From: Trebouxia sp. TZW2008
Taxonomy: Eukaryota > Chlorophyta > Trebouxiophyceae > Trebouxiales > Trebouxiaceae
DNA length: 64,000 nucleotides
Assembly: GCA_002118135.1 (NCBI GenBank)
Contig: BDIU01000075.1
Location: forward strand, 235,323 to 299,322
Reading direction: 5' to 3'
The position numbers and the translations under genes were made by a program. The notes below the pieces were generated by a model, which made no database searches, had not been told where the DNA came from, and saw only the letters and a program-made list of their open reading frames with translations. Below, one piece after another: positions 1 through 61,555 of this stretch; the stretch's first letter is position 1; every line of letters starts with the position of its first letter.

Positions 1-3000
1 GCCAATGAGCTGCCAGCTCTTCTACAGACTGAGGAGAGACATATGCGTCGTCTGTGGCACCAACCAGCACTGCAGCCTTTGTACACCTCGGCCTGCATAA
101 TTAAGAAGCTAGCTCAGCACAGAACATTGCAGTACACTGCAGAACACCAGTGTGCTGCTCAAAGCTGGCAGTCTGTCTGCATTGGGCCTGCATTTGTACA
201 AGGTTGCCAAACAAGATGTGCAGAAAAGGGCCCTAGCTGCAACAGCCTTTGACTACAGCGATTGTATTGCAGCTTCTTCCAGAAGATAACACAGACGCTA
301 CTCTTTTGGAAAGGTTTATAAGTGTTGCAGACAGCTCAGAACCTTGCTAGTGACAGCAGTGACCTGAGTTGCAAAACAGGCTGCCATGTCAGAAACAAGG
401 TGACAAGAGACCAGCTGGCTTACGCATGGAAACGGGTGACGTCTGTGTAGGTCTCCAGCACTTGGTGCAGGCGCAGGCAGGCTTGGTCTTCAGCAAGGCC
501 CCGCCGCAAGCGCCACAGCTCCCCCAGCTCATGCTCAGCTGCATCGATGCCTGCATGACTCAAAGCACAATTTTGAGAAGAGTGAAGCCCTTGAGAATTG
601 GGCTGTCATGTCTGTTGTGTCCTCTTTGCTGCAGGTGCCACAGCTCCCCTAGCTCATGCTCAGCTGCATCAATGCCTGCGTGAACCAAAGTATGGACATA
701 AGGAAGAAGATGCATCAATGATCGCATGACTCTTAGAATGGACAAGCACAAGTCAACAAGCGGAGGGTCAGGCTATGAGTTCTATTGTGTCCCCAACGTA
801 GCCACCACAGCTCCCTTAGCTGCATCAATAATGCCTGCAGGAGAAACAGCATGGATTTGAAGCTAGGCACTAACTTTGAACTCCGAGGGTTCAGTCTGTT
901 GGGGCCTCAGAGAAGTTTGTGGGCACTGTGTCAGCTTTGCCGGAGGTACATGCTGATATGGCACAAGATTTACATTGGGTCCAACGTCACCTTCTCACAC
1001 AACATTCAAGTCAAAACAGAATCTCCTGATGCGCGTGTCAAGCATGTTGCAGCTGCCAGCATCAGCTGTGACAAGGTATGATGGCAAGTTGAATTGCCAC
1101 TGCATGTTGATACAGCCGAGGTACTAGTCTACATAGGCAGTTGTATGTTTTTTTGTTTGAAGGTGCAACAGTACTTGCTCACTGTATTGTGTTTGAACGC
1201 TGTACTTACAAAAGGTGTGTCATGCTGACTGATTGCATCGACCTGATTTGACATGAGTTTTCTGACACTGTCCAACAGCTTTAACATGCACATCAGTATG
1301 CATGAACAAGCTGTTGCAGGGTGTGATACCTGAATTGGCTTGGTCACTGCCAGAGCTGGCGTCAGTATGTTGCTGCTGCCTTTCAGAGCTGTCCTGAACC
1401 CTTGCCTCAGCTTTCTGAGCTATCCTGTCAGTGAATGCTGCATTGGTTGGATGCCTGGTGGACTGTGCCTGGTCGCTTGCTCTCTTGAGCGTGGACAGGA
1501 TGCGCGCCGTCTCTATCAAGCCGTCAGTTGACCTTGCAGACCTCAGTAAAGTGGCCTCGATCTCCTGCAGGACAGGCGCCTTGCTTGTCTCATCATTTAT
1601 CCCTTGCCATGTTGAGGCTTGACGCAACTGCACTAAGTGTCTGTGCTGGAGCATTCAAATCCATAGTTGTTGCCATGCTGATTGATTTGAAAGCATGATC
1701 AAGTCGAGTTTCAGTATGCAGGATGCTGACGTCAACCATTAGCTCAGTTGCAGACATTGCCTGTCATGTGATCAGGTAGAAGATGCTCACAGTCATTAGA
1801 ACTGTAGCTTGTATGCATAACAACCATGTCACAAAGCTGAGTGAGGGCTGACATACAAGAGCGCTGACGGTCACCGAGCCAAGTGCTACCTTCTGATTTT
1901 CATCCACCACTGCAGCCAGAGGTGCCCAAGATGTAGCAGATCTCAGGGCACCATGGCAGAACGCCCCAGAGGCAGATCGGGGGGCCAACAGAGGGGTGCA
2001 GGCCACATTTCCAGGGTAAAGAGATGCCACCATGCTGGCATGCACACCACCCATACTGAACCCGCACATGCCTATAGAGCACCACTCAGGCTTACAGGCC
2101 TGTTGCCTGAAACGATGGTTCGCATCTGTGCAAAGCAGACAGTGCAGACAGTACAGTGCAGACTTGCTACCATGCTAGCATGCACAGCACCCATGCTGAA
2201 CGTGCACATGCGTACAAAGCATGAGTCAGGCTTGCAAAGCCATGGTTTGGCTCTGTCACCACAAAAGTCACAATGTATCGCAAGCGCTAGTTGCAGTATC
2301 CACAACACACAGCATATGGCGCTATTCCATCACAAAGGCGGCGGTCAGTTGATGTGCCCATGTCCACAGCAATCTGTGAGAGATAACACGTGGACAGATG
2401 TACAGGACACTTCCAGATGGAAATCGGATTACGCAGGCTTGCTCACGTGAAAGTACATTGCCCCAGGTCGCTGACTTAGTTGCGCAAACCCATGACGGCC
2501 TGCCCAGTCCAGTAGGCACAAGATTTTTCAATGGTGGCAGTTCTGTTCAGAGACAATCTGGTGTCAGGGGTGTGATTTGACAACGACTGCACTCATCATA
2601 TCAACATCACTCAAGATGCACCAACTTCTCAGGGACATTGGTGCTGACCTAATTGCGCAAAGCCATGACGGCCTGCCCAGTCCAACAGGCACAGGCTCTC
2701 CTCAATGGTGGCTCGCCCTAGCGTAAGCAGGTCACTCACTCTCAGCAGCTGAGATGCAAACTGGTAGTGGGGCTTGCGAGCGCCATAAAACGGGCTTTCC
2801 AACACCATTGTGGCAATACCCTACACAGGACATGAGACCTTGAGCGCAACTGGACTTTGAAACAGCAAGTGGCAGTACACTGCTTTTGGGGATTGTTGTG
2901 TTGACCTTTGACAGAGTCAGAGGCAAGCTGGTCAAGATGCAATGCAGCATCTTCTCAGGTCTGTGTTTGGCAAAAACGGCACAAGGCAGTAAGCTGCACG

Positions 3001-4197
3001 CTGCTGAAGCATGATAGCGTCCTTGCGTTTTCACAGCATAAGTGAAGTATTGCTGACCTGTTGCAACAGAGGGCCTCCCAAATTCATGCGCCTGCTCCAA
3101 GTGTGGTCGCCGGTGCCTGCCAGGTGCAGCACGCACGCTTTGCGCTGCTTGGGGTCCCTGGGCTGCAGCAGACGTGCGTGTGCAAGCCGGCTCTCTGGCG
3201 GCAGGGCATCATATACACGGCCATGACAAGGTGTCCTGCAGGTGTGGACGTAGAGTTGGGTCGGACCGCACTATGCTGCAAGTGTTTCTGAGCTTATGGT
3301 TTGTTGACCGCTTACCAACAAAACAAAACAACAGCAACAGCAGCAGGTCAACAGCGTGAGACGGGCATGTGCAAGACGCCCCTCTGATAGGAGGACAATG
3401 ATACACGCGACCGTGACAAGGTGTCCTGCGATGGTGGTCAGCATTCAGGTAAGGTAGGTCACAGTGAAATGGCATTAGTGCTGTAGCTTTCGACATGTTG
3501 GCCACTTCAACATGTTGGCCACTTCAACATGTTGGCCAAAAGTGAAGAGCAGCACATGAACAGTGTGAGACAGGCAAGTTGGCTCTTTGCAGGCAGAGCA
3601 TCATTCATGCAATCATGAAGGAAGGTGTCCTGCAGCAGGGATGAGCTTATGGCCTTGATGGGCTGACAGTACTGTGATGACTCGATGTGATTGTTGTCAT
3701 GTTGTACAAGTGCAGGCAGAACATGGTCATCATGGCATGCTGCTGATTCCGCCTCTAGTCCAGGGGAGCGTGCTAGGGGCATGCCCTGAAGCTGTTGCAC
3801 TCGCACATGCAGCTTGCTGCCTGATGCTGCATTCACACCTGAAAGAGACTTCTAGCGTCTCACATTCAACACCCCAGTTCTTGCCTTGATACCTTGTATT
3901 CCAGTTGAGCTGCAGTGCAAACACCGCTTGTGAAGCTTTTCTGACAGTTGAAAGGTTCAAGCCTTAAAGCGTTTCAGGTACCGTCTGGTCAAAATGTGGA
4001 GGCGGCCAGGTGCGGAAAAGCTTTGCGTCTTCTTCGAAGTTGACTACCCCAAGGTCGCCCCAGCCCTTTTTAAAGAAGCCAGGACTCAGTCGAAGTTGGT
4101 GCACCAGGGAAGCATACACCAGGTCGAGCTTGCGTCCGGCTAGAAGGGCAATCTGGTCAATGAGCTGCAGCTGCTGGCCCGAGAAGAGTTGAACCAT
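1..4197 (-). CDS. ABHD18: ABHD18-type alpha/beta hydrolase (3' end off the window)
   Basis: Exons I join: 3982-4197 (ATG at 4197), 3839-3909, 3058-3235, 2649-2820, 1890-2071, 1330-1627, 424-550 and 1-92. All seven introns are GT-AG and every phase agrees. The product follows the ABHD18/plant hydrolase family from end to end: KLDLVYASL near the N-terminus, HLAGTGDHTW, LESPFYGARKP, SDLLTLGRATIEE, the nucleophile elbow CGFSMGGVHASM reached across the exon 4/5 splice, DVTRFHAPRC, and VLVGATDDAYVSP with the presumed catalytic acid. The expected histidine segment lies beyond base 1. Exon 6 adds about 100 polar residues where the plant proteins I recall have a much shorter linker. Mammalian ABHD18 has been linked to cardiolipin deacylation; a similar role here is inference. 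Four exons carry decayed junction copies in the flanking introns. The gene lies head-to-head with the codanin gene. Confidence 0.9.
621..834 (-). repeat. Two decayed acceptor-side copies of ABHD18 exon 7
   Basis: On the minus strand, copies at about 621-699 and 783-834 repeat the intron end and first codons of the real exon 7 (424-550; IDAAEHELGELW). The first copy keeps IDAAEHELGELWH before diverging; the second has an extra ATT and a deletion. Both lie upstream of the real exon in the sense of transcription. Confidence 0.75.
2130..2545 (-). repeat. Decayed donor-side copy of ABHD18 exon 4 and acceptor-side copy of exon 5
   Basis: About 2460-2545 repeats the end of exon 4 (ATIEES...), but a shifted frame and a stop break it. 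About 2130-2222 repeats the start of exon 5 (CTFSMGAVHASMVASLHC against CGFSMGGVHASMVASLYP). In transcript order the arrangement is exon 4, exon 4 copy, exon 5 copy, exon 5, so both copies sit inside intron 4. Confidence 0.8.
3360..3629 (-). repeat. Two decayed acceptor-side copies of ABHD18 exon 3
   Basis: Copies at about 3360-3425 and 3560-3629 repeat the acceptor and first codons of exon 3 (RTPCHGRVYDALPPESRL at the top of 3058-3235). The nearer copy reads RTPCHGRVYHCPP and then loses frame; the farther one reads RTPSFMIA and then a stop. Both lie upstream of the real exon in intron 2. Confidence 0.8.
3493..3538. repeat. 17-bp tandem repeat
   Basis: The unit acatgttggccacttca occurs about 2.6 times in ABHD18 intron 2, between the two exon 3 copies. 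Confidence 0.8.
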
Positions 4198-4706
4198 TGC
4201 ATGCTGTAGGGCTCACGCTGACGCTGTCGTCGCAAGCAAGCAACACCTCATACGTCGATCACGCGCAGGCTCCCCGACACTCTTGTGACAGGGCAAGGCC
4301 GGAGACGCTTCTATTCGACAGCATGGGTCAAGTATGATCACCGAGGACACGCTTCGCGCCGTGACGCAGGTGATGGCCGGGGCTTACTTGCAAGATCCGT
4401 TCATGTTCTCATCCTGGTCAGCATCTCGCTTTCTCACATGGCATCTTCCACACGGGCTTACTGATCGGCAAGTCTTGGCACGGCATGTCGTTTGCTGCGA
4501 TCGGGTGAGCGGACGACAACCGCTTCATTGTACCCGATGAATGGCGTGCATTGCTTGCAACCTGCTGCAGCGTGCAGGCGTTGTATGTCATACGTTATGC
4601 CGCAAACACAGTTGCAGCAAGCTGTGATCACTGCATGCTGCTCACTTGAGCGCGGTCTGGCGTAAGTCGCTGCGCGATTGCATCTGGGCAACAATCCTCA
4701 GCCTTT
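4198..4706. promoter_or_regulatory. Shared 5' region of the divergent ABHD18 and codanin genes
   Basis: This 509-bp gap separates the ABHD18 ATG (4197, minus) from the codanin ATG (4707, plus). It is clearly richer in CG dinucleotides than the adjacent introns and holds no junction copies. An ATG at 4334 opens a 12-codon stretch before a GTGATG donor-like site; it could be an alternative or upstream start, but its phase does not fit the next codanin exon. A bidirectional promoter is inferred from position and composition only; no core element was identified. Confidence 0.4.
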
Positions 4707-7700: not shown

Positions 7701-10700
7701 TGTATGCATGCTGTGCCTGCCTGCGTCCGGTCTGTACATTGGGCTGAATCTGTCTGTTTGCATGTGATCCAGCACCTGCCCTGTCTGAGCATGCTCAGAT
7801 CTTGTGTGCCGTGGCTCTTCAGACCAACCTGCTGAACTGTCCCATAATTGCTCCACCATGCCCATCGCACGTTCACAATTCTTGCAAACTGCATAACAGT
7901 CTCAGCACCTCTCATGAAGTGTACCAAGCTTTCACCCTGCTGTGCGGTTGTGCTGAGCGTGTCTCTAGCAGCTGAGCTGAACTTGTGGCTGCACCTCATT
8001 GCTCTGCCATAGCCCTCTCAAACGCTGCACAGCTTCACGCACAATGCATGAGAGTTTGCATGAACACCATCCATGAGGCTCCTTAGACTGACTCTTTGTT
8101 TACTGCAGTTGTACCTAGTGTGTCCCTGGCTGCTGAATTAGACCTGCTGCTGCACCTTATTGCTCTGCCTCCCAGCCTGGTGTTGACACCCTCCTCAGAG
8201 ACGGACCTGCAGTTAATGTTCTCATCTGGGCCAGTGGCTGCACTGTATGCTAGTCAGGTGCTTGTTTTGTCAGGTGAGCCAATCTTTCAGCAACAAGGAG
8301 AACTTGGCCTTCACCAGCATGTCAATTTTGCATTGTATGCAGCTTAATTCTGCTTGAAGGTGCTCTTAACATAAACTCCTGTCCTGCTTCCGTGGCTTAC
8401 CTTGCTTTAGAAACAATACAGTCTCACATCAAAGCATACAGCCCGCAAGGGCACTGACATTGCGCGCTCTGTTCAGGAAGGCTGATTCCTAGCTTGAGCA
8501 AGCACATGCTGGAGAGCATTGCTGAAGTGCCAACCTTGAAGCAGCACGCCCCGGCACTCATGGCAGATGCACAGCATCAGCTGGAGGTATGCCTTTGCCA
8601 TCAGGCTCATATCTTGTTTGCAATGTTTGCAAGTGGCAGCAGCATCTTCTTAGGACACATGCGCTTAAGATTGGCAAAAGCAGTGTATCGTTGTAACCTT
8701 GAGTGCAAATCGTGGGGCCTTGATTTTTCGGCAACAAGGCCAAAGGGAAAAGGCTAAAAATGGCGTGTATGCAGATTGCGGTCGTGTATTCGCCATGCAC
8801 ATGCAATGGCTCCATCACACACCTTACAGTATCAAAGGTCTACACGCGCAGCCAACTTGTGTCAGATGTCTTTTTGCTTGCAGATGTTGAATGCAATGGC
8901 ACTGCCACATGACGTCAGGCTGACTGGAGGCAGCAGTGGCAGGCATTTGTTTGGTGCTGGCGCATTCACTCAGGATGGGCAACCGCAGCGCACACAGGTG
9001 GGCTGCAGCTCTGGTGACATCTTGGCATGCACAGTGCTGTATGTTCTGCTTTGCATGGGAGAACCTTCATGTCCGACGGTTTGTCATTTGAGCTGCATCA
9101 GTTGCTGGGTATGTGTTGCGGCTCACGTTGGTGTGTACAGTGTAGCACAAACACCCTCTGTAGGGTAAGTTGAGGCAGGCAGGTTTAATGCCCATGAGTT
9201 CCTCAGCAAGTCCTGGTGCTGCTGGGTTGCCTTCTTCTGCTTGTATCTGCTTTCTGCTGGCTGTTGGGCTGCATAGTTTCCCTGGAAGCAAAAGGTCAAG
9301 CAGTTATGCAGCAAACTTGCTGAAAGGTGCCATTGACCAACACGAGCAAAGTCTTGGCTTGTTGTTTTCAAACTGCACTTGTGAATGCATCACCGAGCTG
9401 CAGCATCATTTCAAGAGCATTTGGGGCATGCAGCTGAATTCCACATGAGGCGTGCCTAATCAGTATACTTGCATAAGTGCTCACAAGCCTGCCCAAACTA
9501 ACGCAAGGTAGTCCCAGACAACAGGCCAGCACTGACAATGTCAGCAGCCATGCAAAGCCACTGTCAGCCGTGTACTGAGACCAGAAAAAGTGCCCGGTTG
9601 TCTATCAAGCAAGGCAAGCATCTGTGCAGGAAGCTTCTCATGAGCTGCACATTCAAAAAAAAGCTTGCTGTCATCAGAGCGCGTGTGTCACAAACTGCAG
9701 CGTAAATGCGATTCAGCTCAGCTTAGCAAGCATAAGCATTTTAATTTGGGTGTAGGAGGACCAGCGCAGAGTGAGCAACATGAATGACTGCCGAGATGGA
9801 TGGGCCAAGCTGATGCGGGCCGCTGCCGACCAGCAAACGCAGCCCTTCAAGGGCTCTTCTGTCAGACAGGGCCTTTCGCAAAGCCCTGCACAAGGTACAC
9901 TGGACTGGCTGAAGTTTAGAGCATGAATTTATGAATGGAACAAATGGAAAGGGCCCTGCTGCAGTACAGATTGCTTGTGCTGGTCAGATCCTCTGTTGTC
10001 AAGCGATTGCAGAGTCGACAACACAGGTGTGCAATCCTGCAAACATTGTCATGCGTGATGACAGCTGCACTTGCTGCTTTTGCCTTGACATGCAGAATCC
10101 CATATGGCCATAATAATGATTGTAAAGCCATCAATCACATTGTGCGGCAAAGGACACAACAGCAGCTAGACCCCCCAGCATGCAGATGCCAATGTAGCTG
10201 TGCTGATGCATGCTCAGCAGCTTGCACAAACAACACAGTCCCTCCATGTCCTCCATGTCCAATTTAAATGATTCAGGTTAGCACATGACCGAACTGGTTG
10301 GAGACAGTTGATTGCTTCTGTACGTACCTAGATGGGGCTGCTAAGCCGGCCTAGCCCACGTTTACAATGAATGAGTGAATGAATGAACAGGGACTCAGGA
10401 GCTTGACTTGCTTTGTATGCAGATGCCAATTGAGTTGTTTTGCTCTTCCAGCGATTTGTATAGCTTTTGGAACAACTGGCAGCTGTATACAAGCAGCATG
10501 CATAAGCGTCCACGCTCGGAAGCTTTGTCTTGCATGCAGATGCCAATGTGGCTGTGCTGATGCACATGCAGCAGCATGCAAGAAGATCATTGCGAGGCCT
10601 GCGCCTGGACAACTACGCCACCTTTGCTGAGCTGTTCATCACAGCCCTTCTTCAAGCTGCTGCCACTGGCGAGACCTTGCTAGATGATGACAGCCCCTCT

Positions 10701-13700
10701 ACTCAGAAGCTGCAGAAGCTGGCTGACAAGGACACTTCCAAGTTCTACAGGCTGAATCAGCGCATGCAGGTATGCAGCTGTCCTTCGGTATGCCTTGCTC
10801 ACTGCCACAAGTGCCCACATAAATGCCACAAGATACCACGGCATTCCAAGCTGCTGCCTTTGGCATGTTGCTCTTGCATGATGCCAGTTGTCTACTTGTA
10901 AGCTGCAAACGCTGGCTGACAAGGACGCCTCCAAGTTCTACAGGCTGAAGCAGCAAATGCGGGTATGTTTACTGTCCTTTCATGGATACAAACTGCTGCC
11001 ACAAGGGGTGAAAAGCCAAGCAGCGGCTACAGCTATGCTACAACATGTACAATATGCAAAAGCAGCCTCAAAACATGACTACATGACAAGGCTATTTCCA
11101 CTTCCAAGATTTGATGGCTCATTCCATACATGCATTACAGATTCATGATTGAGGGTGTGCAATCTATTGTTGCAGGGGCAGGCAGCAGGACACCGGCCCT
11201 CTCACCAGGGCAGATACGCCACCAACTCAGGAGGGGTCAGATCTGGTGGTAACAGCCCCTTTGCCTCGCCAGGAGTCGCAAGCCAGCCAAGCCACTCTGA
11301 GCCACTGCACTTTGGTTTCCAGTCGAGATCAAGCGGCAGCCTGACAGCGCAACAAAGCAGTGTCACAGATGCGGATTTGGCTGATGTCGCTGTGGCGCTG
11401 CAGTTTCCCCAGGCTCAGCGTCTGTTTGTCATGTTTGTCCAGGCTGCTGACAGCCACAAACTGAACTCCAGCCTTGTCAGGTCAGCTCTTGAACTTTCAC
11501 TTGTGTGGCACAAGTCAAGCATGGGCAGAGCGTACTGGAAAACATGAGTAAAGCAAATAGGCCAACATGCGATTAGCTCCTAAAACAACACAGAAATGTT
11601 CTGGAAAGATTGTTTACGCTTGCTATTGTTGCTATGCCTGTCATCTCAAGCAGTCCTGTGGCTGCCTGTATAGAGCTCACTCTGAATTTCTCTGACAAAC
11701 GTGCAGACACTAGCATTGTTGTCATTATGGCACTGCAGTCTGATTGATCAAAATCCTGCATGAAAGCCCTTGACCATTGCTTGCAGGTGTATGCGGGCTC
11801 GCCTGCAGCAGATGCACCAGTCAGCCTTGACTGACAGCGCCACCTCTGACAGACTCAGAAGCGAGAGGCTTGTATCACAGTGCTGCATTGCTTCCTTCCT
11901 CAGCCTCCTCACCTTCACAGGCAGCTGCGGCATTAGTCAGCCTCATGACTCATCCAGCAACAGTCACGTCTGCCCAATCCCTGAGTTACACATAGCGCTG
12001 CAAGCAGCTCTGCACAGCAATATTGTTGAGTGGGTTGTGCCCTGGATTGTGCAATACCTCCGGTTCCTGAGTCATGATGTTGACTCTCAGCACTCAAGCC
12101 AGGTTCAGCAGGTGTTGGGTTGCTTACGCAGCTTGCAGTCATGCGCAATTCTGTTGCCACAGTCAGCAGAATTTGGTCCTATGGCTCTGTGTCTGCGCAC
12201 TGTGCTTGATGAGCACTTGGAGCAGATGGCAGACGTGGAAGTGATGCCAGAGGTTATGCCAGATGCCGACTGGTTAGCAGCCCTTGACAGCTGGCAGGCT
12301 GCAGTCAAGCTGAGTCGGTCTGTGCTGGATGTGCGTTACATGCAACTCTGCTGCCCTCTTTTGGAGCATGCAAGACAAGCTGTCCAGGTAAACTGAGCGT
12401 GGTGTACTTGTTTCTAATCCAGTTGCGTTTGCTCATTTGCAAGCCCGGTCAGACATGAGTTCCTTGCAGGAGCAGAATGTCCATCAGCTGACTGATAAGG
12501 ACTGTTGCCAGCTATGTGATTTTGTTGTCGCAGTCTCTGTATTGCATCTCAATTGTCTTGCTGAAATCTGTGTGATGCAACAATGAAAATTTGCCTGCAC
12601 ATGCCTGCAGGCTGCTGCTTCAGCAGAGGGCAGTCAGTGGGAGGGCAACAGGGCAGCGCTAAAGGGAGTACGCAAGATCACCCCTTCACAGCCCCTAGGG
12701 GTCAGCCTCACCCCAAACTCAGAACTGCCCCCAGCCCTTGCAGCTGCTGTTGAAGGTGCTACAGGCAGTGACGCCCATCCTGTGAAGCTCAAGCTGCAGC
12801 ATGCCTTCTTGGAACAGTACAGCAGTAATGAGCACAAGGTAAAACTGATTGCTTTGCATTTGTACACACACTGGTAGCAATGCTCTTCCTGTGAAGCTCA
12901 AGCTGCAGCATGCCTTCTTGGAACAGTACAGCAGTGATGTGCACAAGGTCAGATTGGTTGTTGCTTTGTGTGTTTACATACTCATTCTGCAAAGCTCAAG
13001 TTTCTGAATGCCTCCTTAGAGCAGTATAGCAGTTCTGATCACAAGGCAAGGCCAGCTTTTGCTTTGTGTTTGTGCATTTAGTGATGTTGTTGCAGGCTTG
13101 TTTTTGCATTGCTGCATCTCCATGTGCGGCAGCAGCAGCAGTACAGCAGCAGCGCTTGCACGCGTGAGCAGTAATTGCGTTGAGCTCACCCATGAAGTGA
13201 CTCAACCTGGCTTGCTTATTGCATGTTGTCTGCAGGTTCGGTTGAAGGATGTTGTCACCTACATCACCAGCATCATTGCACAGAACGCAGTCAGCAGCAG
13301 CTTTGAGAGGTGTCTACCTGCGCTTGCCAAAACTGCAGCAGAGGACTTTTTCTCAAGGTGTCAGGACATTGTCAGACAATCATCTGGGTCAAATAGTGAA
13401 GATCAGCAGGACAGCAGTAGTGCACGTGCTGGGCTGTCAACCCATGCAAGACTGCAGATTGATAGCTGTGCTGATAGCTGCGTGGGCTCTGCCTGTTATA
13501 AGGTGTGCTTCTTGAGCGGTCCTGCTCTTGTTTGCGTGAAGCGTTATTGACAGCAAAAGGATGTGTGATATTTGATACGTTGCACCTCAGTCAAGCGTGT
13601 CTGGTTGCTGCAGCTTGATAAGCTAGCTTTGCACATGCCAACAGCAAGTTGCCAGCCAAGACTGCTGTGCTTTCCAGGCAAGAAAATTAGCAGATCTTGA

Positions 13701-14583
13701 AGCCAACATCAAAATCAGCCTCATGTTGAATGTTTTTCGAGTCATTCAACGTGAGGCTGCAGATGCCATGACATACACAAGCCATAAACGTGCGAGCGTA
13801 GGTGCAGTCACAGATTGACATGTTCTCCTGTACATGCAGGCATTAGACGAGTGCTATAATGAGGCGGCCAAGGTTGTTGACCAGCAGGCAGTGCATGCAC
13901 TAGCTGCTTTGTCTCCCCCAAGCTGGACAGCTGCTGTCATTGGTTCTGCTGCAGCCATCGTGGCAGAGACGGCCAAAGGCTCAAGCGCACAGCAGATTGT
14001 GTCACAGGTGATCCAAACAACATGTCTTGGCTGAGCCTGCTCCTACTTCTTGTGACAGACAGAGCCAGCAACGTTGCCAGTGTACAACGAAAGTTAGCAC
14101 AGCAAACTGTGTCACAGATGATGCAAAGAGCTTGGCTGAATCTGCATCTGCACGCCCTGGTGAACAAAGCAAGCATGTGTGGTGTTCAGGCAAAACTGGC
14201 CTGGTGGCAACAGGACTCTGGTCATGCACACCTAGCACCCTTGCTGGGCTGTGTAAGCCACTGATTTCATGCATAAAGAAAGCAAGCAACAAGGCCAGTG
14301 CACATTGGCGCGTGTTGATCCTGTGCTTTCCCTGGACCTGGTGCTTGGCATCTTGTCGTTCAAATGATCTCCCATGGTCTCACTTGATGATAAATGATTG
14401 CCACACTGCAGCTGACTTCTAAGCATTGTGTGATACATATTGCTGAGGATAATTTTGTGTGATGTGCAGAGCACAGCAGTGCGTAAGCAGATCAAGCAGC
14501 AAGTTGAGAGTGCTAGTGCTGCGCTGATCAAGTCGTATACACGCCAGTCCGCTGCTCAAACCATGTCAACAATGAGTGAATGA
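4707..14583 (+). CDS. CDAN1: Codanin-1 homologue (ASF1-binding, histone-supply regulator)
   Basis: Exons I join: 4707-5081, 5290-5548, 5898-7538, 8109-8273, 8477-8586, 8884-8997, 9756-9894, 10597-10769, 11176-11480, 11787-12387, 12611-12838, 13236-13502, 13678-13797, 13840-14007 and 14470-14583 (stop), about 1,592 residues with all phases consistent. MAEYLHRVLAGDIELDSVKDWI aligns with the start of human codanin-1, so I chose that ATG. Residues 156-165 (RGRKIAPTRI) resemble the ASF1-binding B-domain. Exon 3 is a long Ser/Gln/Pro-rich disordered region with a His-Gln-Ser repeat (about 6331-6411). Later exons match the conserved core, such as VEWVVPWIVQYLRFLSHD, DVRYMQLCCPLLEHA and GVRKITPSQPL. 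The last roughly 170 residues of animal codanin were not found; the gene may end at 14583 or have further exons (an open exon-like piece lies at 14932-15046). The likely role is holding ASF1-histone complexes in the cytoplasm. Confidence 0.85.
10303..10386 (+). repeat. Dispersed repeat with GAATGA tail, copy 1
   Basis: An 84-bp element in codanin intron 7 begins gacagttgattgcttctg and ends in a run of ATGA/GAATGA units. A roughly 88 percent identical copy lies on the minus strand at 51806-51890. Both copies are in introns and in the same orientation as the host gene. Confidence 0.75.
10903..10962 (+). repeat. Intact donor-side copy of codanin exon 8 (possible 60-nt cassette exon)
   Basis: This copy of the end of exon 8 (10597-10769) reads LADKDASKFYRLKQQMR against LADKDTSKFYRLNQRMQ. 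It has an AAG acceptor, a GTATGT donor, no stop and a length of exactly 60 nt in phase 0. Unlike the other copies it could be spliced in without breaking frame. Confidence 0.7.
12888..13046 (+). repeat. Two donor-side copies of codanin exon 11
   Basis: The real exon end (KLKLQHAFLEQYSSNEHK, followed by a GT donor at 12839) is repeated at about 12888-12948 (QHAFLEQYSSDVHK then GTCAGA) and 12988-13046 (NASLEQYSSSDHK then GCAAGG). Both lie downstream in the intron, about 100 bp apart. Confidence 0.85.
14010..14130 (+). repeat. Donor-side copy of codanin exon 14
   Basis: The exon 14 end and the following intron (agattgtgtcacag then gtgatccaaac, cttggctgagcctgct) recur about 108 bp downstream as aactgtgtcacag then atgatgcaaag, cttggctgaatctgca. 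The donor GT has become AT, so this copy is dead as a splice site. Confidence 0.75.
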
Positions 14584-36240: not shown

Positions 36241-36302
<62 letters not shown>

Positions 36303-39300
36303 AAGCCATGCTGGACATTTAAGCAAGCATCATGACCTGAAGACTGCAGTGGCTGCACTGAAGCTGCACCGTGTCCTCCTTTGACTGGTCTTCATGCAGA
36401 ATCAGGTCTCTCCTGCACTCCCAGGGTTGCAATGACTTGTTGACTGTGAAGCTTGATGTGACACAGACGGCTGGCCTTGCTGCTGCCTATGACTGAAGCC
36501 TGCTGCTGCTACACGTGAGTGACGCCTGTTGCTGCCACCCATGCCCAAGGCTTGTTGCTGCTAACTATGACGAAGCCCTGTTGCTGATGCCTGTGACTGA
36601 GCCATGTCCCTGCTCAGCCACACGCAGTTCTGCAAAGGCATAGTCTCAAAAAGTGTCATCAGATGTCAACACTTTTCTTTGTTTGGTTCAGCCTTTCATC
36701 AGCGGGACATTCAACTTTTCTTTGAGGCAAACACTGATCAGCTGCCTTTGGTTGCCAGACACATTCACCTGTGCTTTCAAGCCAGGAAGTCCAATGATTT
36801 CCTGCTGATTTGCCTTGTCACAATTGTCTGCTATATGAAAAGAGTCACATCTGGCTCCCTATCCCGGACTGTAAATTCTATTGATGGATTCATCGAGCAA
36901 ACCTAAAGCAAGCAACTCCTGTCTGTGCTCAGGTGCAAGCCATGCTGGACACATATGCAAGCAAGTACCATGACCTGAAGGCTCCAAGGAAGCTGAAGTG
37001 GAAGCCAGCTCTAGGCAGTGTCACTCTGAGCGTCAGAGTGGGCGCAGACACTGTAGATCTGACCGTCACTCCTCTTCATGCCACCATCATCATGCACTTC
37101 CAGGCAAGTCATGCTGGTGTTTTAGTGCACAAGCAGTCAACACGTCAACCAATCGCTTGATGTGGCAAGTTGCTGCTGACAGTGTGGATCTGTCTGTCAC
37201 TTCTCTTCATGCCACCATCATCAGACATTTCCACCAAGTCATGCTTGCCATTCAGTGCTTCCATCATTCAGCCAGACACAACATTGCCCAACTGCCTGAT
37301 GTGGCAAGTTGGTGCTGACAGTCTGGACCTGACCGTTACTCCTCTTCATGCCACTGTCATCATGCACTTCCAGGCAAGTCGTGCTAGCATTTCAGTGCAT
37401 TCATGGTTGAATTAGCGGAAACAATCATCAACTGCTTGATGTGGCAACTTGGTGCTGACTGTGAGGATCTCACTGTTACTCCTCTTCGACTCAGCATCAT
37501 CAGACATTTCCAGCAAGTCGTGCTGGCCTGTCAGTGCACAAGCAGCCAACACATCAACCGTTTGCTTGATGTGGCAAGTTGCTGCTGACAGTCTGGATCT
37601 GATCGTTACTCCTTCTCCATGCCACAATCTTCAGACACTTCCAGCAAGTCATGCTGGCCATTCAGTGCATTCATCATTGCAACAGCCAAAAAAATCGTCC
37701 GCCACTTGATATGGTAACTTGGCGCTGACTGTGTGCATCTAACCTTCTGCCTTCTCCATGCTGCCATCATCAGATATGTGCAGCAAGTCATGCTGGCCAT
37801 TCAGTGCATTCTGCATTGCATCAGGAAAAAAATCGTCCACCGCTTGATGTGGTACTTTGGCGAACTGTGTGGATCTAAGCTTCTCCCTCTGATGCCACCA
37901 TCAACATGCACTTCTGGGCAAGTCACTCTTGCGGTTTTGATCATATTGTAACCACAACATCAATTGACCAAACATGTCATGGATGAATTGCCCCATTGAC
38001 CCAGTTGAATAAACGCTTGATCACAGGATGTGGCGGTTGATGATAGGTGACTTGTGGTCTAGTTGCGGGATGCGGCTCATGATTTCACGGCTTGAAATGG
38101 ATGCGGCGCTTGTCATCAAGCAGCTCTGTGCAACAGCATGCCTGTTGTTGGGCTTAAACCAAAAAGTACACATCTCAGCATCTGGCCATAGCGCCAAGTG
38201 CTGTTCAGTCACCCATCAGCTCACCACTGCAGTGATGCTCTGTTGAAAGCAGGAGGATTGAGTTTGGTACATGGGTTCTCTGTTGCAGGAGCGTGCAAGC
38301 TGGCGAGCAAGTGAGCTAGCTAAGCTCATGGAGTTGCCATTGCCCAAGCTGCGCATGGGCGTTGTCTTCTGGATCAACCAAGGTACACAAGTCGTCCCAT
38401 TGTGAAATTCACCACCACACATGCATTACTGCACTCTCTGGCCAAGGTCTGCGATATGCAAATTTGAGGACCTTGCTGCATGTAGTGCTGGCATCCATGC
38501 ATTCAGCTGGACAGGTCAAGCGTATGCCTTATGCGAGCGAGGAACTGCTGCTGATGCATACTCTCCAGTTGTCATAGCAATTTTTATGCAGCAAGCAGAT
38601 GGCCTGCAAATTTGTTTTAACATAAGGGCATTGGCAACAAGAGAGTAATCAGGCTGTATACATATATATTAAATATGAGATATATATTGTGTATAACATA
38701 ATATATATTTGTAACAATACAATATATATTACATGCAGGGTTGCTCACAGAGAGTAGAGGCAAAGCTGGCGATGCAACATACACTCGAGTTGAGCAGCTC
38801 ATTGAGTCTGACGCCAACCGCGCTGCTGGGCGGGAAACCAGTGCATCTTTGGCGCCAGAAAATGAGCCGCCCTTGGCGTCAGTGCAAGATATCATACGCC
38901 AGGTAAAGTTTCTCTATCTTCTGGACTTCAAGCAGCAGAAAAAGTATGTGCCTACTAGCATCATAACGGGAGCCTCTGTGCACAGAAGCAGCCTGAAGCC
39001 TTCACTTCCACCATTCGCTGAACGAATATACAGGTTTGGGTGTATGAATCCAGTGCTAGAGCCGTAATTAGTCGTAAATTGAGTGTGTAAGTTGCATTTC
39101 TGTTTGCTTGCAATCCCTGCATGTGAAACTGCCATTTTCTGTATGAAAAAGAAAACAAAAAGAAAAGTCTACGCCGTTAGGCGTCATAACGGGAGCCTCT
39201 GTCTACAGAGGCAGCCTGAGAATTTTGTGTATGCTATAGCTGAGCCGGCTGTGAAGTGCAAGTATGCTGCAGAAGCAATTGACATTGTTCTGCCCTGCAA

Positions 39301-39784
39301 TGCAGCATCAGCGTGGTTTCTCATTGGCTGCACTTCTGCTGACCAGCGGTTTTACCTTTGCATTGTTTTGTTGGATTGTGTCTGCAGTTGCACATGCGTT
39401 TTGCCCTTGCCCTTGCCCTTGGACCGGATGGGCAAAACATAAGAGTCTGCCAACTTGGTGCAACAATCTTTTGTTGCTGCTGGGAAACACTACTGGAAAT
39501 ACAGGGAATGGCGTAGATGTCCCATTCTGGTGTTGTCAGTATCATATCAGCTTCTTGTGTCACAGGATATGGCGGTGTATGAGACCTATATTATGGGCAT
39601 GCTCACCAACTTTGATGCTGGAATGCCGTTAGACCGCATTCACAACATGCTAAAGATGTTTGTGGTGGATCCGCCATATGACAAGTCAGCAGATCAGCTG
39701 GCAGCCTTTCTAGGAAGGCTGGTTTTGGAGGAAAAGCTCATTCTGCAAGGAGAACTGTTCAGAAAACGAAGCTCGACAAGATGA
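26358..39784 (+). CDS. APC2: Anaphase-promoting complex subunit 2 (cullin-like)
   Basis: Sixteen exons: 26358-26423, 26505-26675, 26725-26829, 27143-27323, 27550-27770, 29110-29268, 30580-30805, 31219-31290, 31767-31933, 33399-33580, 34096-34210, 35383-35571, 36933-37103, 38289-38382, 38739-38902 and 39566-39784 (stop). They give about 833 residues, against 822 in human, and every phase agrees. Diagnostic segments: YETVGQLRIKEMFDIVVDYP, DIIEQYVSTIKTLREVDPT, REYLRSRRDTIRCIV, SWQPDPIDADPSRS, HDIISMLVGIYGSKELFI, REIRTLELLKLRFGDA, VMLKDIADSKRINANIK, SALFWPP, and the C-terminal winged helix DRIHNMLKMFVV. APC2 is the cullin scaffold of the APC/C ubiquitin ligase; it binds the RING subunit APC11 and the E2 near its C-terminus. 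Introns 10, 12 and 13 start with GC. Eight junction arrays inflate the gene to 13.4 kb for about 2.5 kb of coding sequence. A TGTAA polyadenylation-like motif follows about 30 nt after the stop. Confidence 0.95.
28198..29109 (+). repeat. Five acceptor-side copies of APC2 exon 6 start
   Basis: Copies of the exon start (AESEEAYT..VVCQHVQ) carry the landmark gtgtcag at 28231, 28416, 28600, 28775 and 28958, with the real exon at 29142. Spacings are 185, 184, 175, 183 and 184 bp. The copies carry stops, indels or broken continuations such as TGAGTAAGG in the fourth. Confidence 0.9.
29340..29945 (+). repeat. Five donor-side copies of APC2 exon 6 end
   Basis: The exon end (AVPLDFLRLLL then GTGAG) has landmark gtgcctct at 29233 (real), with copies at 29371, 29499, 29637, 29765 and 29903. 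Spacings alternate 138, 128, 138, 128, 138 bp. Copies 2 and 4 resemble each other, as do 3 and 5, so the array is built of 266-bp dimers. Confidence 0.9.
30200..30579 (+). repeat. Two acceptor-side copies of APC2 exon 7
   Basis: Copies of QWQSRL..YETVGQ.RIKEM begin at about 30200 and 30390, before the real exon at 30580 (spacing about 180 and 185 bp). They keep over 100 bp of exon similarity but diverge in the part that reads VVDYPESGPAVQD in the real exon. Confidence 0.9.
30852..30914 (+). repeat. TTGC/CTTG tetranucleotide microsatellite
   Basis: A run of gcttgcttgcctgcttgctt with TTTG interruptions, directly after the exon 7 donor of APC2. Confidence 0.9.
31934..32260 (+). repeat. Two donor-side copies of APC2 exon 9
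   Basis: The end of exon 9 (TMLTDDSGGASAEG then ESLFEELKRNVAD) is repeated with the landmark ctcgggcgg at 31861 (real), 32022 and 32182, 160-161 bp apart. The first copy has a deletion that shifts frame before its GT; the second stays open and ends GATGTGACG. Confidence 0.9.
32450..33398 (+). repeat. Five acceptor-side copies of APC2 exon 10
   Basis: The acidic exon start (EAETDEAALASAESWQPDPI) recurs with landmark ggcagcca at 32543, 32724, 32899, 33077 and 33263; the real exon is at 33460. Spacings are 175-197 bp. The third and fourth copies have diverged most. A short CTG run (about 32448-32475) precedes the first copy. Confidence 0.9.
34427..35382 (+). repeat. Six acceptor-side copies of APC2 exon 12
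   Basis: The exon start (VMLKDIADSKRINANIKALP) is repeated with landmark gctgacagc at 34445, 34593, 34766, 34939, 35088 and 35250 (the last altered); the real exon is at 35401. Two mini-copies of the ctgcaggtca..gctgacagc junction lie at 34703 and 34876, again 173 bp apart, showing that a larger unit was itself duplicated. Confidence 0.9.
35572..36165 (+). repeat. Four donor-side copies of APC2 exon 12
   Basis: The exon end (SALFWPPQQQDTLKLPSQ) recurs around 35671, 35822, 35962 and 36114, spaced 140-152 bp. The real exon is followed by GCAAGG, whereas the copies are followed by GTCC, GTAA, GTAT and GTCA. The copies have stops (such as TGTAAACTG) or altered codons. Confidence 0.9.
36219..36302 (+). 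repeat. Pure GCT/GTT trinucleotide run
   Basis: About 80 bp of gctgttgctgctgct-type repeat in APC2 intron 12, directly after the exon 12 donor copies. It reads poly-Ala on the minus strand, but no gene is supported there. Confidence 0.9.
37104..37925 (+). repeat. Six donor-side copies of APC2 exon 13
   Basis: The exon end (VGADTVDLTVTPLHATIIMHFQ in the real copy, two pieces shown here: TVDLTVTPL and IIMHFQ) is repeated at about 37212, 37351, 37489, 37622, 37762 and 37895, with periods of 131-140 bp. Most copies have cagcaagtc instead of the real CAG-GCAAGTC donor. Confidence 0.9.
38650..38730. repeat. AT-rich tract in APC2 intron 14
   Basis: About 80 bp of tatata/atatatt sequence immediately before the exon 15 acceptor, unlike the balanced composition elsewhere. 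Confidence 0.8.
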
Positions 39785-41003: not shown

Positions 41004-41005
41004 TA

Positions 41006-45744: not shown

Positions 45745-48700
45745 ATGTCTGCAGATCTGCGAGTCGGAGCTATAGTCTTGAGCACTGACTGCTCCTGCGT
45801 CGCATTGGTCAAAAGATCTGCATCAAACTTGTGGGGCTTTCCACACGGTTGGGCTGACGGCAAGACGGAACAAGAAGCCGCCAAGCATTTTGTCAGGACC
45901 GAGACCGGAATTGTTTTATCCGACCCACTTCGGCAAGTCACTTTTGAGGTAGGCGCTGAGTCTGGCAGGCAAGCACTGACTCACATATCAGATGCAGTTA
46001 TTGACATGCCGTTCACCGTCCAGGCAGAAGAGCAGACGGGTATCTCAGCTCGCCTATACCTGATAACAGGGATCAAAACACAGGAGCTCGCTCCTGTGAA
46101 GGACTGTCAAACCGATGCCACCCAAGCTTCCTGGTTCCCGCTGAGACAAGTTTTCGACAGCGACCCCGAAGGCTCTGGAGCACTTGTAGCCCCGTTCCTA
46201 ACAGCGCTACACAGATGGCTTGACAGGTCTGCAGGATTTCTGTACTGCTTTACTGCACCCTACTGCACCCTACTGCACCCTACTGCACCAGCAAAATCCA
46301 TACATTGCCTGCCAACTGCAAGTCAGAATGTGCGCAAACATGCAGCTGCCTTACAAGGAGGCAGCAAGTGTTAGACACAGCTTTCATTGCAATGTCTGTG
46401 ACTTTGGGAGCTTGACACACAGCAGCATGTCTGCGGCAGCAATCTGGGTTTTTCTGGTCGGAATAAATTGGCGTGTTTGCTGCAGTCATCTGGACCTGCT
46501 GGTCAGAAACATTCGGCATGCTTGTCGCAGCAATCTAACTTTCTTTGGTCGAATAAAGTGGCATGTTTGCTGCAGCAATCTGGATGTGTTTGGTGGGGAG
46601 CTCAGGTCCAACAATGGCTTCACCGGGACTGATCTGGCTGAATGCATGATTTACAGACGGCGCACATGGCAAGGCATTTTGCCTATCAATCATCTTGCAC
46701 AGTGGGCCTTAAGCAATAAGGTGAGTTAGCATTGGCATGTTTGCTGCATACGGGCGTCTTTGCAGCTAGTGCTTTTGCAAATTATAGTATGCAATGTTTA
46801 CAGCTATGTCTGCAAGTCTGTGCAGGATCAGGCATGCCACATGCTTTCTGTGGCAGCATGCCCTCGCTTTTGAAAACGACTTGCAGCAGTTTCATTGTGC
46901 TCAGCGCATCTTCGTTTGCGCACATTTCTTACTGGGAAAAATTGTCTGAGTGCAAGCAGTTGTCTACGTCACAGCGCAAGCGCTGCTTCGCTGCAGATGT
47001 GCGCTTTTGGATGAGACAGACAGACTTGCACTGCATGCTGACCATCTGACAACTCCTTGCACAATGTTGCTGACACCACAATGCACATACAGCAGTGTGC
47101 TAGCATTGTGTCGTCCCTGCAGCATATATTGTCATATTTTGTACGACGCTTTGCTGTTTGTGCAGCATGTCTCTTGCAAGCGCGCACAAGCATGGTGTTC
47201 ACACAGCATGTGCTGCCAAGCCTGTACAGGCACATTGCATTGATGCTGCAACACTTGCTGGCAAGAGCGTACAGACAAACATTGTGTTCTCTATTCAGCA
47301 CGTGCAGGCATACTCATGACAGTGCAGCACGTGCTGCCAAACTTATACAGGCAAACTGCATTGTTGCTATAGCATGGGCTCACAAGAGCCTACAGGTGTT
47401 ATTTATGCAGCATGTGCAGGCATTGATAATGCAGCACGTGCTGCCAAGCTTTGCACAGGCATTGAGCTATCTGTGCAGCATTTGCTGCTGCCAAGTATGT
47501 ACAAGCATGGTGTTCACAAGCATGTGCTGCCAAGTTTGTACAAGCATGGTGTTCACACAGCATGTGCTTATCAGTCATGTGCAGACATTGTGTTGTCTGC
47601 GCAGCACGTGCAGGCGTTATGAACTCAACGCAGCACGTGCTGCCAAGTTTGTACAGGCACAGAAAGAGAGCAACTGCAGCTGAACACTCCAGCACTGAAG
47701 TGTGTTTGTGGTGTGTTCCGCTGCAGTTACCAAGTCCCTGCTATGACACAGTGCACAACCCACGCGTGCTCCACATGCAGTGTGTGACGTGCATTCTGCC
47801 ACATCTGGGTCTACAAATCACTCCAGGTAAAACAGCGCACAACAGATTTAGTTCAGAGCAGTCCTTTCTGATCTGCTAGGGGCGTTCATCAGCATAACAA
47901 CAGAAACAGCAAACTCAGTCTGCATGCGATGCCTCAGTTCTTGATGGAATCGTTTCTTTATGGCAGCATTGTCTTTTGTGTAGAATGCATATACGCCGAC
48001 CTGCATAAGAATTGTGCATCTGTTGTTTGCAATCCCATCAACACCTTTGCATGCTAAGCACAAAGTGGTTTCAAGGGTGTTGATTCACTTGCGCATGTGT
48101 TTAAATTGCTGGCAAGCTTTTTTGTGCTTGGCAGGTAACTTTGCAAAGGTCTCTGATGTGTCAGCATAGCTACAGTTATCAGCAAGCAAGACCAGCTCAC
48201 TTGCTGATAACCTGTTTGCAAAAGTCTCCACTTGCTGTAGATCTGCTTGTGTATTCTGCACTGATTGTAGACCTGCATGTCAAGTGTCTGCATTGTGTGA
48301 ATGCTTTCAGCTTGCTTGTCATCACCCTGCCAAAGCTCGTTCTCCCGAATACCATGCAGGTGTAGTTTGTTGTGTGAATTGCGTGTGTTGTCATCGCTTT
48401 TGCAATTCATATGCAGCCATCATACAGATCTGCTTCAGAAGTGGACATGCCCACTTCAGTTCTTAGTCTTCACTAGACAATACACTTGTCAATCATGCAG
48501 ATTGGGGTTCAGTGACAACAGAGGATGCAACCCAGAACGCTGCTCTGGCCGCAATCCTCTTCTTGGCCGGTGGTGTGGGCAAAGACAGCCCCCATTGCAT
48601 CATTACCCTGGTAGGCAGTGACCCCACAGTGAGACCCTTGGTGCTGAACCGCAAGCAAGCCACCAAAATGCTGGAGCAGCGCGTCAGTCAAGTCTCACAT

Positions 48701-50945: not shown

Positions 50946-53900
50946 TCATACAGTGCCATGTTTGAAAAGGTCTCCTCGTCGTGCAGCTTCCACAACAGCA
51001 TAATAGCCCTTTGTGACATCTGGTGTCTTGAGCAAGCGCAAAGCATACTCTCTGGTCCCCAAGACTCCGAGGCGCTCGTGGGTGACAGCATACAAGGGAA
51101 TGGTCTACACAGCACAACCATGTGTTGGCAGTCGGTAAAAGTCGGTATAAGTCCAAGCTTTGAGCAATGGCTGACAGCCTCTCCAATGATTGGTCTTTCT
51201 TCTTCGTAAGAATTGCAGGTCCAATCAGATTGGAGCTTGAGATCAGTGCAGCAGCCTGAGCAGCGATGACTGTGATGACTATGCTGCAAGCGAGATTGGG
51301 AGGCGTATGCATCAGCTTAGGCATGAGTGGTGCTGCAGATACTCTCATGCCCAGGTGGGGTTTGAGTCCCAAACATGCAAGTCAGAATCATACAATTGTA
51401 TGAGTGGCAGACGGATAGTTCACGTTTGGAATATGTATCCTATAGCCTCTGTTGCGCAATGGTTGCTATTCCAGACCACGTCCTTTGCTTCACTGACAAG
51501 TAGCAAAGTTTCTACTTGAAATGCTGTTGAAACGTGTATCTAACAGAGAAAGGCGAGCATACCTTCAGCAGAGTGTGAAACCTGCTTTCCTTGAACAAAA
51601 ACGCATCAAGAAGGCCACCGGTTTCCCGTATCCGATCCAAAAACTTTGGTGTGATGCCGCCTGTAGGCATCGACAGTCACAATTGAGACATCACGATTTC
51701 ATGTCTGTGGCGCTGTGCTCACGCAGACCATGGCTTAGCAGGATCAAACTAGAGAGGGACTCATCTGCAACACTGTAGGGCGCGAGGATTACAGGCATGT
51801 GTGCTTACTCATTCATTTCATTCATTATAAACGTGGGCTAGGCAGGCTCAGCAGGCCTAACTAGGTACGTACAGAAGCAATCAACTGTCTTCAGGTGTAC
51901 TGAGTTGCGTGGCAGCTTGTGTCTGGGTACGTACCTCGCCTGTGCATCACTTATGAGCATGCAGAGTTTCACACTTGTGCACATGCCAAAATTTTACACA
52001 GCATGCTGTGCATGCAAAAGTGCATTGCCTGTGCATCACCTGTGAGGAACACTCCGCCTGTTGCTAGTAAGCGCACGCCCATGTGACTTGCTTCAGCACC
52101 CAGTATGGCCAACATGAGATCTGCCGCCTCTAGACAAAGCTCATCCCTCTCCTGCTCACCATAACATATAGTAATGTGTAGTGTAGGTGTAGTGCATGGC
52201 ATAGTTATGGTGTAGTTAACATATAATCACTGCTGCCTACAATATGACTCTGTGCAGTTTCGCCATGTATCATTGATGGCTCAGCAGACCATAGCTTTGA
52301 GTCGTTTGCAAGCTGCACAGCAATCACAGCAAGGCAGCAGGAAAAGCTGACGATTGAACTTGTTATGACATTGATTTTGCCATGACAATGGAAAAAGCCT
52401 ACTGATACATGCATAGCTGACAAAAGACCGGCCAAACAAACAAGCCAACAAGCGCTGAGTGTACTTTCAAAGGTCCAAACAGCCACTAAGCAGCAACTGC
52501 AGCAACACTGCTCTGGGTGCAAGTCAGGCATTGCGCCATTGGAGACCTGCTATCATCTGTCACGTGATCCGCGTACAAGTACGAGAAATCACGCTCGAGT
52601 TACAGATGCAAGTATATGCAGCATCGGGCAACCATCGATGCAAAGCGCGTGAGAAAGCTTGGAGACCTGCACAGTCACTGAGTCACATGTGCAGCATGAC
52701 TCTCTTTTGTTCAGTACTTTCTCTTTATCAAAACACACACCACTCTCTTTTGTTCAGTAGTTTCTCTTTATAAAAGCACACACCACTCTCTTTTGTTCAG
52801 TAGTTTCTCTTTGTAAAAGCACACACCACTCTCTTTTGTTCAGTAGTTTCTCTTTATGAAAACACACAACATAACGGCATTCTTGATGTAAGGACAAGGC
52901 AAGTGGAAATGAATAACTGCATGTTCACTGCAGTGGTACATGTGAGTAAGGATGATTTGTTTCAAGGACAATCATTTTGTGACCCAAAGCATTTGTGTTA
53001 AAGGTAAAATGCTGTGAGTAAGGCATTCTGCTGACCTGCATTGCTGCTTTGCCTACAGAGGGTGGATCTCGCTCGGTTTGCAGCTGATTCTGAGGCCTGC
53101 CGCCTGGGTTGACTTTCCTCAAGAAGTCGTACAGGTTGACCAAGCCAGAGCCACACGCTAAGTGCTCAACTGCATTCACCAACAATTTCTCAGACATGAA
53201 CAAAGCTCTATCTTTGAAATCTGTGACTCCAAATGCTCAACTGCAATAACCAGCATATTCTCATGCATTCACAAAGGCCAGGCATGTGCTGAGAAACATG
53301 GTGGGTTGCGCAAAGGCCCTGGTCACAACGAATCGTACCCACGTGCAATGGTCGAAACACCGCAGCTGTCCGAGCTGTGCGTCGTGTTAGGGTTTCATCG
53401 TTCTTCAGGGCGCACATGGCACCCACACCGGGGAAAGGGGGGGGGGGCGCTCCATAGAGTGGGGCGCCCAATGTTAGACAATTCTGACCTTGCCAATGCT
53501 TTGGATCAAGCCCAGTGCCTTACACATGCATGCTTGATGCGATCAAGTCTTGCTATGAACTCAGCTGCAGTGACTGATAGTCAATTGCTTCTTGCACATG
53601 CCACATGAATGGGAAAGGCTGAGACAGTTTGTATGTCAAACTGCGCGCTTCAACGCTGAGAAGGAACAGTCTGCTCAGACTGCATTGTGTAGGATGAAGT
53701 TAAGGATTTGCAGGTCAGCAGGTGTTTGTACACATGGCCAGGCGGCATGTAGTTGTTGTTTGCCTGATGAAGTGTATAGAAGGAATGTTAGGTCAAGATC
53801 TAGGCAGCACACCTTCACAGTAACCAAACTGGTCTTCAATGTAGCCCTGTATTTGCCTTTGCAAGTCGCCCCTGGGGGCAAAAGAGGAATGCGCTCCCTC

Positions 53901-61300: not shown

Positions 61301-61555
61301 TCAGAAAGCTCCTCCTCTATCAGGGCAGAAAGCCTGTAGCCGCGCAGCATACTATCAAAGCAAGGCTGCGACATCATGCCAAGTTCTCTATGATCAATTT
61401 GCAGGTGTGACATTTGCAATATACTGATGACACAAGAAGGATCGCACTTTAACAGCTCACCTTGCCTCGCCGTTGCCGGCGTCTCGTGCCCGCAAACTCT
61501 GCAATTCCTGCTTCAGGTCAGACGTCGGTGCGTCAAAAATTTGCCAGGGCTCCAT
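58347..61555 (-). CDS. Large disordered Ser/Ala/Gln-rich protein (3' end unresolved)
   Basis: Exons 61461-61555 (ATG at 61555), 60874-61387, 58777-59941 and 58347-58434 join in phase, giving at least 620 residues; the stop was not located. The only part that looks folded is the N-terminal 80 residues (IFDAPTSDLKQELQSLRA, then LSALIEEELSERGHLTTFLN). The rest is low-complexity. In exon 3 there is a three-fold repeat of about 17 residues around LDSRAGAAYLP / LDGHANAACMP (near 59270-59420) and an acidic run SDADSDSDSDADPD. I do not recognise the family. The short exon 4 is supported by a GT donor, a CAG acceptor and phase. One possible fifth exon is mentioned under 56872-58346. Confidence 0.55.

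Follow-up and report, generated by a model that had tools for sequence, protein, structure and literature searches.

Tandem genomic duplication is described in a review as the sole mechanism of intron gain shown in vivo (PMC3443670), and the corresponding model is attributed to Rogers 1989, Gao and Lynch 2009 and Hellsten 2011 (PMC3443670, PMC4974935). In one potato gene, duplication of an upstream intron-exon structure led to a new intron, and another intron-internal tandem duplication there, 83 bp long, left the gene structure unaltered (PMC4974935). Here we analyze a stretch of 64,000 nucleotides (the window) from the genome of the green alga Trebouxia sp. TZW2008, in which segments lying across intron-exon borders of ABHD18, codanin and APC2 occur again in the adjacent intron as partial, decayed tandem copies (edge copies). 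Like the duplications of the intron-gain model, these are short, intragenic and tandem, with an outcome set by splice-site use. Unlike in that model, where a new intron arises, an existing intron grows and copies of the old junction remain in it.

Small tandem duplications from the repair of staggered breaks are described in animals and plants (PMC8355091, PMC5730883). The arrays reported here resemble them in being direct, adjacent and sub-kilobase, whereas the concentration of detectable arrays around 139 bases and the high standing load set them apart. Partial duplications of MSH1 in green plants, some of them inside introns of the gene itself (PMC10487979), likewise place exon-containing stretches within introns of their own gene, but they span many exons (exons 4-16 in one Vanilla intron), whereas the copies here are parts of exons, tens of bases long, beside their source. 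Introners share the pervasive, repetitive remodelling of introns but copy across genes (PMC9860276), while each of the present copies was found no more than 1 kb from the exon that it repeats. Tandem alternative splice sites and mutually exclusive exons (PMC8055015, PMC6071210) also repeat splice sites near one exon, unlike which the present copies are partial and decayed; arrays of whole exons are described in Tetrahymena (PMC6564038). Among the top-listed open-licence papers, taken as titles and the beginnings of abstracts, no account of decayed junction-copy arrays was found, whether for Trebouxia or as a feature of a whole genome. The sequence-only reading of this DNA had stated that no named process is known to describe the pattern as a pervasive, polarised one. 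Within these sources that holds for decayed junction arrays as a genome-wide feature, but tandem-duplication intron gain and staggered-break duplication are both in print.

Outward position of the edge copies

In 20 genes with 146 exons, all 84 edge copies lay outward of the exon edge that they repeat, acceptor-side copies upstream and donor-side copies downstream, and none lay inward. The three window genes held 48 of them and genes elsewhere the other 36. The earlier claim that segments across intron-exon borders are tandemly duplicated, always on the outer side, was thus borne out by 48 of 48 copies in ABHD18, APC2 and codanin, although its count of about 59 decayed copies was not reproduced. 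Copies were present at 44 of the 252 internal edges, and seven of the 20 genes had none; the proportion of edges bearing copies varied between genes at borderline significance (P 0.065).

Exon borders were taken from models made with a custom-written spliced protein-to-DNA aligner, which permitted only introns with GT or GC at the start and AG at the end; proposed exons of fewer than 25 bases were discarded. The ABHD18 model has 8 exons and reaches residue 425 of the 465 in a homolog; the gene extends past the window end. APC2 has 16 exons, and all 814 residues of its homolog were covered by real exons; codanin is an 11-exon composite built on two partial homologs. The best protein matches were, for ABHD18, Trebouxia sp. 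C0010 (73% identity) and another sequence (74%); for APC2, Trebouxia sp. C0004, A1-2 and two other sequences (67-71%); and for codanin, Trebouxia C0010 and C0005, over parts of the query (42-46%). The window is on contig 73 of the assembly (68.5 Mb in 527 contigs). The other 17 genes, from outside the window, were found with Pfam profiles and comprise 10 chaperonins, four HSP70 genes and three kinesins; in these models the gene's own peptides were placed by the profile, so that exon limits may carry an error of a few bases. The HSP70 genes were chosen for completeness, and two of them (L028, L029) had shown copies in the exon table before the choice was made. One kinesin locus (L032) was left out because of overlapping exon matches. 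Edge copies were searched for on both sides of exons, up to 1 kb.

ABHD18 had five edge copies, all outward, and 30% of its intron bases were in arrays:

424-690, minus strand: exon 7 (424-550) acceptor edge with upstream copy at 628-690, period 125
1890-2236, minus strand: exon 5 (1890-2071) acceptor edge with upstream copy at 2165-2236, period 140
2470-2820, minus strand: exon 4 (2649-2820) donor edge with downstream copy at 2470-2538, period 173
3058-3635, minus strand: exon 3 (3058-3235) acceptor edge with two upstream copies, at 3359-3429 and 3574-3635

In intron 4, where the order of elements was examined, exon 4 is followed by an exon 4 copy, an exon 5 copy and exon 5, the odd order that had been reported for this gene. 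Codanin had six edge copies, again all outward, with 23% of intron bases in arrays:

7943-8169, plus strand: exon 2 (from 8109) acceptor edge with upstream copy, period 161
10178-10580, plus strand: exon 6 (10540-10769) acceptor edge with upstream copy at 10178-10226, a dispersed repeat lying between
10653-10967, plus strand: exon 6 donor edge with downstream copy at 10847-10967, period 194
12776-13077, plus strand: exon 9 (12611-12838) donor array with two downstream copies, period 109
13987-14145, plus strand: exon 11 (13840-14007) donor edge with downstream copy, period 110

The extreme case was APC2 (26358-39781), with 37 edge copies, all outward, of which two, at the acceptors of exons 4 and 13, were weak or isolated:

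28195-29214, plus strand: exon 6 (29110-29268) acceptor array, five upstream copies, period about 185
29209-29946, plus strand: exon 6 donor array, five downstream copies, period about 138
30181-30721, plus strand: exon 7 (30580-30805) acceptor array, two upstream copies, period 180
31841-32252, plus strand: exon 9 (31767-31933) donor array, two downstream copies, period 161
32480-33488, plus strand: exon 10 (33399-33580) acceptor array, five upstream copies, period about 178
34414-35495, plus strand: exon 12 (35383-35571) acceptor array, six upstream copies, period about 148-173
35485-36179, plus strand: exon 12 donor array, four downstream copies, period about 145
37037-37932, plus strand: exon 13 (36933-37103) donor array, six downstream copies, period about 131-139
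38958-39219, plus strand: direct repeat entirely within the last intron, 39-base match, period 223

Arrays occupied 5,898 of the 10,976 APC2 intron bases (54%), in agreement with the proposal that the copies lengthen introns. The further proposal that the innermost junction still makes the original product agrees with the spliced models, in which the real exons give the conserved protein.

Two observations concern the same genes. In the spliced APC2 model, GC donors (CAG|GCAAG) occur at three of the 15 introns (window positions 33580, 35571 and 37103); at exon 12 the real donor is GC, yet three of the four downstream copies have GT. The dispersed repeat beside codanin exon 6 is about 100 bases long (10285-10390) and has an inverted copy at 51809-51893, 41.5 kb away. 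Of 817 genomic candidates, 40 matches including itself were scored, and the other 39 were 89-95% identical; the element is SINE- or MITE-like.

A repeat across one junction has a simple geometry. The copy that counts as real is the one joined to the remainder of the exon, hence the other copy must be intronic, and only exon-internal, whole-exon or randomly inserted copies could break the rule; polarity without exception is therefore expected. The 129 repeat pairs in the 20 genes comprised 79 outward edge, six inner, 40 intron-only and four flanking pairs. Exon-exon or whole-exon pairs were absent from the pair tables of these genes, where about seven exon-internal duplications and about one whole-exon duplication were expected at the rate of the other array classes. 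A single exon-interior piece had a copy; it lay upstream, and the piece was nearer the exon start. The strict outward polarity supports a tandem origin together with purifying selection. It does not support the distinct polarised process that the sequence-only reading had proposed: the outward side follows from geometry and selection on the mRNA, 6 of the 46 arrays in well-defined introns are intron-only, and arrays also occur throughout DNA sampled regardless of genes.

Profile searches of the genome with HSP70, kinesin and SNF2 showed weak matches next to full exons, and some of these matches contained stop codons. They look like exon copies and could give rise to false exon calls. By eye, the matches listed in these tables contained about a dozen more outward copies, which are outside the 84, and nothing that was clearly inward; a number of kinesin rows were ambiguous, and the HSP70 copies were those of L028 and L029. 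The chaperonin and AMP-binding profile tables showed no clear copy.

Array load and decay of the copies

Self-comparison of the window at E 1e-5 gave 61 pairs, of which 59 were direct and within 1 kb, the two exceptions being a distant inverted pair and a distant triplet-repeat match. Looser settings gave 68 near direct pairs against one near inverted pair, and none of three dinucleotide shuffles of the window contained a near pair. The search covered periods of 25 bases and more. For comparison with the rest of the genome, 16 stretches (151,983 bases) were picked by contig number regardless of genes, at a single fixed place on each and from contigs longer than 50 kb. This sample held 66 arrays, or 4.3 per 10 kb, covering 15.8% of bases, with at least one array in 15 of the 16 stretches; the window held 22 arrays, or 3.4 per 10 kb, covering 17.1% of bases. 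In its array load the window is ordinary for its own genome, and the edge copies of the genes outside the window show that copies also occur in other genes of the same genome. Near pairs in the sample were direct in 142 cases and inverted in one, and after low-complexity filtering no direct pairs more than 1 kb apart within a sampled locus were found. The median period of the self-comparison arrays was 139 bases, with 85 of 88 periods at 60-239 bases. The arrays are thus direct, close and sub-kilobase, as are duplications from staggered breaks.

Decay was followed in the 83 copies whose alignment covered 20 or more exon bases, exons of unclear frame not being counted. Copy and real exon differed at 218 of 1,828 first codon positions (0.119), 205 of 1,831 second positions (0.112) and 439 of 1,826 third positions (0.240), and 13 stop codons occurred among the 1,761 codons compared. 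Equal differences at the first two positions and twice as many at the third are expected when an unconstrained copy is compared with an exon that is under constraint except at synonymous sites. Overall the edge copies were 3-32% different from the real exon. The splice dinucleotide was retained in 55 of 83 copies (one further row was dropped because the model end was not a donor) and, in a stricter set, in 27 of 39, compared with 56% of intron and 72% of exon dinucleotides. The 83 copies gave no sign of splice-site preservation. An apparent over-preservation of the decoy splice sites disappeared after trimming of alignment ends and use of a one-sided baseline, leaving a slight deficit instead.

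Short tandem duplication filtered by splicing as the probable origin

We attribute the edge copies to an abundance of short tandem duplications through which splicing acts as a filter, an explanation to which we assign a probability of roughly 0.76. Short tandem duplications would form widely across the genome and then decay. Those across one exon-intron border would be retained, since splicing at the border joined to the exon remainder yields the old mRNA; the other junction copy would be a near-neutral passenger of the intron, outward by geometry. Exon-internal and whole-exon duplications would be eliminated by selection. Once two copies are present, further tandem events may enlarge the array, and existing arrays may also gain copies through replication slippage or unequal exchange. 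The first lesion probably consisted of two nearby nicks, a staggered break that was filled in before its ends were joined; the period size, the direct orientation and the spread of the arrays fit small tandem duplications formed in this way. Vaughn and Bennetzen 2014 and Schiml 2016 are cited on such duplications from staggered-break repair.

Several figures weigh against this explanation or limit it. In the same sample, Tandem Repeats Finder placed 35 of 49 arrays at periods shorter than 40 bases, which is below or near the limit of our search, so the period peak is valid only for the kind of array searched. Young pairs were few (19 of 210 at 90% identity or more), and 21% of these abut; most high-identity pairs were short pieces with an unmatched spacer and not abutting repeats. 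The repair route is one that we infer. One-sided decay at 0.115 per site predicts a retention of 0.78 for the splice dinucleotides, compared to which 55 of 83 is a deficit (P 0.008, a value that presumes independent copies, which these are not). The cause may be mild counter-selection of the decoys or their loss through indels, and "neutral" is an approximation. The earlier view of the copies as near-neutral therefore stands as regards decay without coding constraint and does not stand fully as regards the splice dinucleotides, which are fewer than neutral decay predicts. In 115 well-defined introns (11 introns in 11 genes were left out because of a gap in the protein profile), 40 junction arrays were found against six intron-only arrays, with 25,562 and 27,315 possible start sites, respectively; placement alone predicts a ratio of about 1:1, and a detection bias of 1.3 leaves a strong excess over this. 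For this ratio, the side on which the copy lay decided which edge an inner pair was given to, whereas edges were assigned independently in the count of 84, and the isolated APC2 exon 13 acceptor match was dropped from the ratio and included among the 84. Finally, among 21 units in which the exon part predicted a clear intron match (predicted score at least 40, indels ignored, two of the 21 having exon parts of 13 and 32 bases), 13 had none at the 2% level. Simple decay of one tandem unit does not fit every case.

This survival of the exon part alone is what gene conversion from the real exon, or copying of short edge pieces, would produce, as the exon part would stay young while the intron part ages. 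Clear intron homology was absent from 25 of 43 junction units, and identity was mosaic within the APC2 exon 9 and exon 10 arrays: the second exon 9 copy was 96% identical and had no intron match, the first was 88% identical with a long intron match, and two non-adjacent exon 10 copies were 95% identical over 65 bases. In the 18 other units, however, intron homology was retained, and in a non-matching unit at HSP70 exon 5 (L028) a forced alignment gave weak, gapped intron homology, which permits fast decay by indels. Gene conversion, fast indel turnover in introns and copying of short edge pieces could each cause the survival of exon parts alone. We regard conversion as an unlikely account of the copies, and it would supplement short tandem duplication filtered by splicing more than supplant it.

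The excess of junction arrays raises a different explanation, namely that duplication is directed to exon-intron borders or stimulated there, for instance through chromatin or through breaks at exon edges that accompany transcription, the junction class being truly enriched. The 40:6 ratio favors it, as do the 24 junction and five intron-only arrays of the 17 outside genes. The outcome depends on the detection bias. The simulated bias was 1.3 and was not relied on, since the junction units point to a larger one: the intron part stood out alone in only 18 of 43 units, which suggests a bias of about 2.4. For the outside genes P was 0.0019 at a bias of 1.3, 0.035 at a bias of 2 and 0.20 at a bias of 3; for all genes it was 0.0008 at a bias of 2 and 0.025 at a bias of 3. 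Chaperonins alone (10:4) gave no clear excess (P 0.24 at a bias of 1.3), two of the HSP70 genes were chosen after their copies were already visible, and arrays were equally dense in the gene-blind sample and in the window. Detection bias may explain the excess, which we hold to be unproven, and targeting appears improbable. A bolder combination is doubtful, if slightly less so than targeting: exon edges would be preferred sites of duplication and exchange, with conversion maintaining the likeness of the copies, so that borders would act as engines of intron growth and decoy arrays as a readable clock.

That the copies are functional, as alternative, mutually exclusive or regulatory decoy exons, is very unlikely. 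A usable splice dinucleotide in 55 of 83 copies and up to six copies per exon edge would suit such a role, but splice sites are retained no more than free decay predicts, the pair tables contain no whole-exon copy, and the coding constraint and intact frames expected of alternative or mutually exclusive exons are missing from copies with 13 stop codons and no constraint by codon position. Misassembly of repeated reads as tandem copies can practically be dismissed: for all the fragmentation of the assembly (527 contigs) no direct support for it was found, and the 3-32% differences from the real exon track codon position, with arrays in 15 of 16 sampled stretches.

Other genes of the window and meaning for intron growth

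The sequence-only reading had also named the lipase, ACL4, Nudix, glucokinase and disordered-protein genes. Self-comparison, used here in place of spliced models, showed tandem arrays in or near all five, two of them as follows:

24556-24808, minus strand: tandem pair in the ACL4 region, period 142, acceptor-spanning as judged by eye and not from a spliced model
52699-52871, strand not assigned: tandem array between two weak glucokinase exon matches, 92-94% identity, apparently wholly intronic

The stricter array search found no array between 13077 and 18853, which is consistent with the reported lack of copies in COX6A; the looser search added one, at 13987-14145 in codanin. Inside or near the Nudix reading frame, at 46251-46289, lies a perfect 10-base tandem repeat, TACTGCACCC, in 3.9 copies. 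An Rfam scan of the window gave no match at the gathering threshold, and a Pfam scan of 10 window reading frames matched glucokinase once, weakly, while a single frame showed weak leucine-rich repeats. In 13 long reading frames from the window and sampled loci, the cysteine codons TGC and TGT were depleted relative to all frames (log ratio about -0.9), perhaps because of non-coding DNA rich in TGC/GCA.

In summary, the pattern is true, widespread and striking, with an ordinary core, and the junction excess and the survival of exon parts alone are the features most worth following. Short tandem duplication filtered by splicing offers a simple, testable route by which introns could lengthen without transposons. 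It also suggests that many false exons await gene prediction in Trebouxia-like algae. Every junction copy that survives started as a splice site identical to the real one and in competition with it, so that the genome is a natural experiment on the choice of the spliceosome and on the decay of unused sites.

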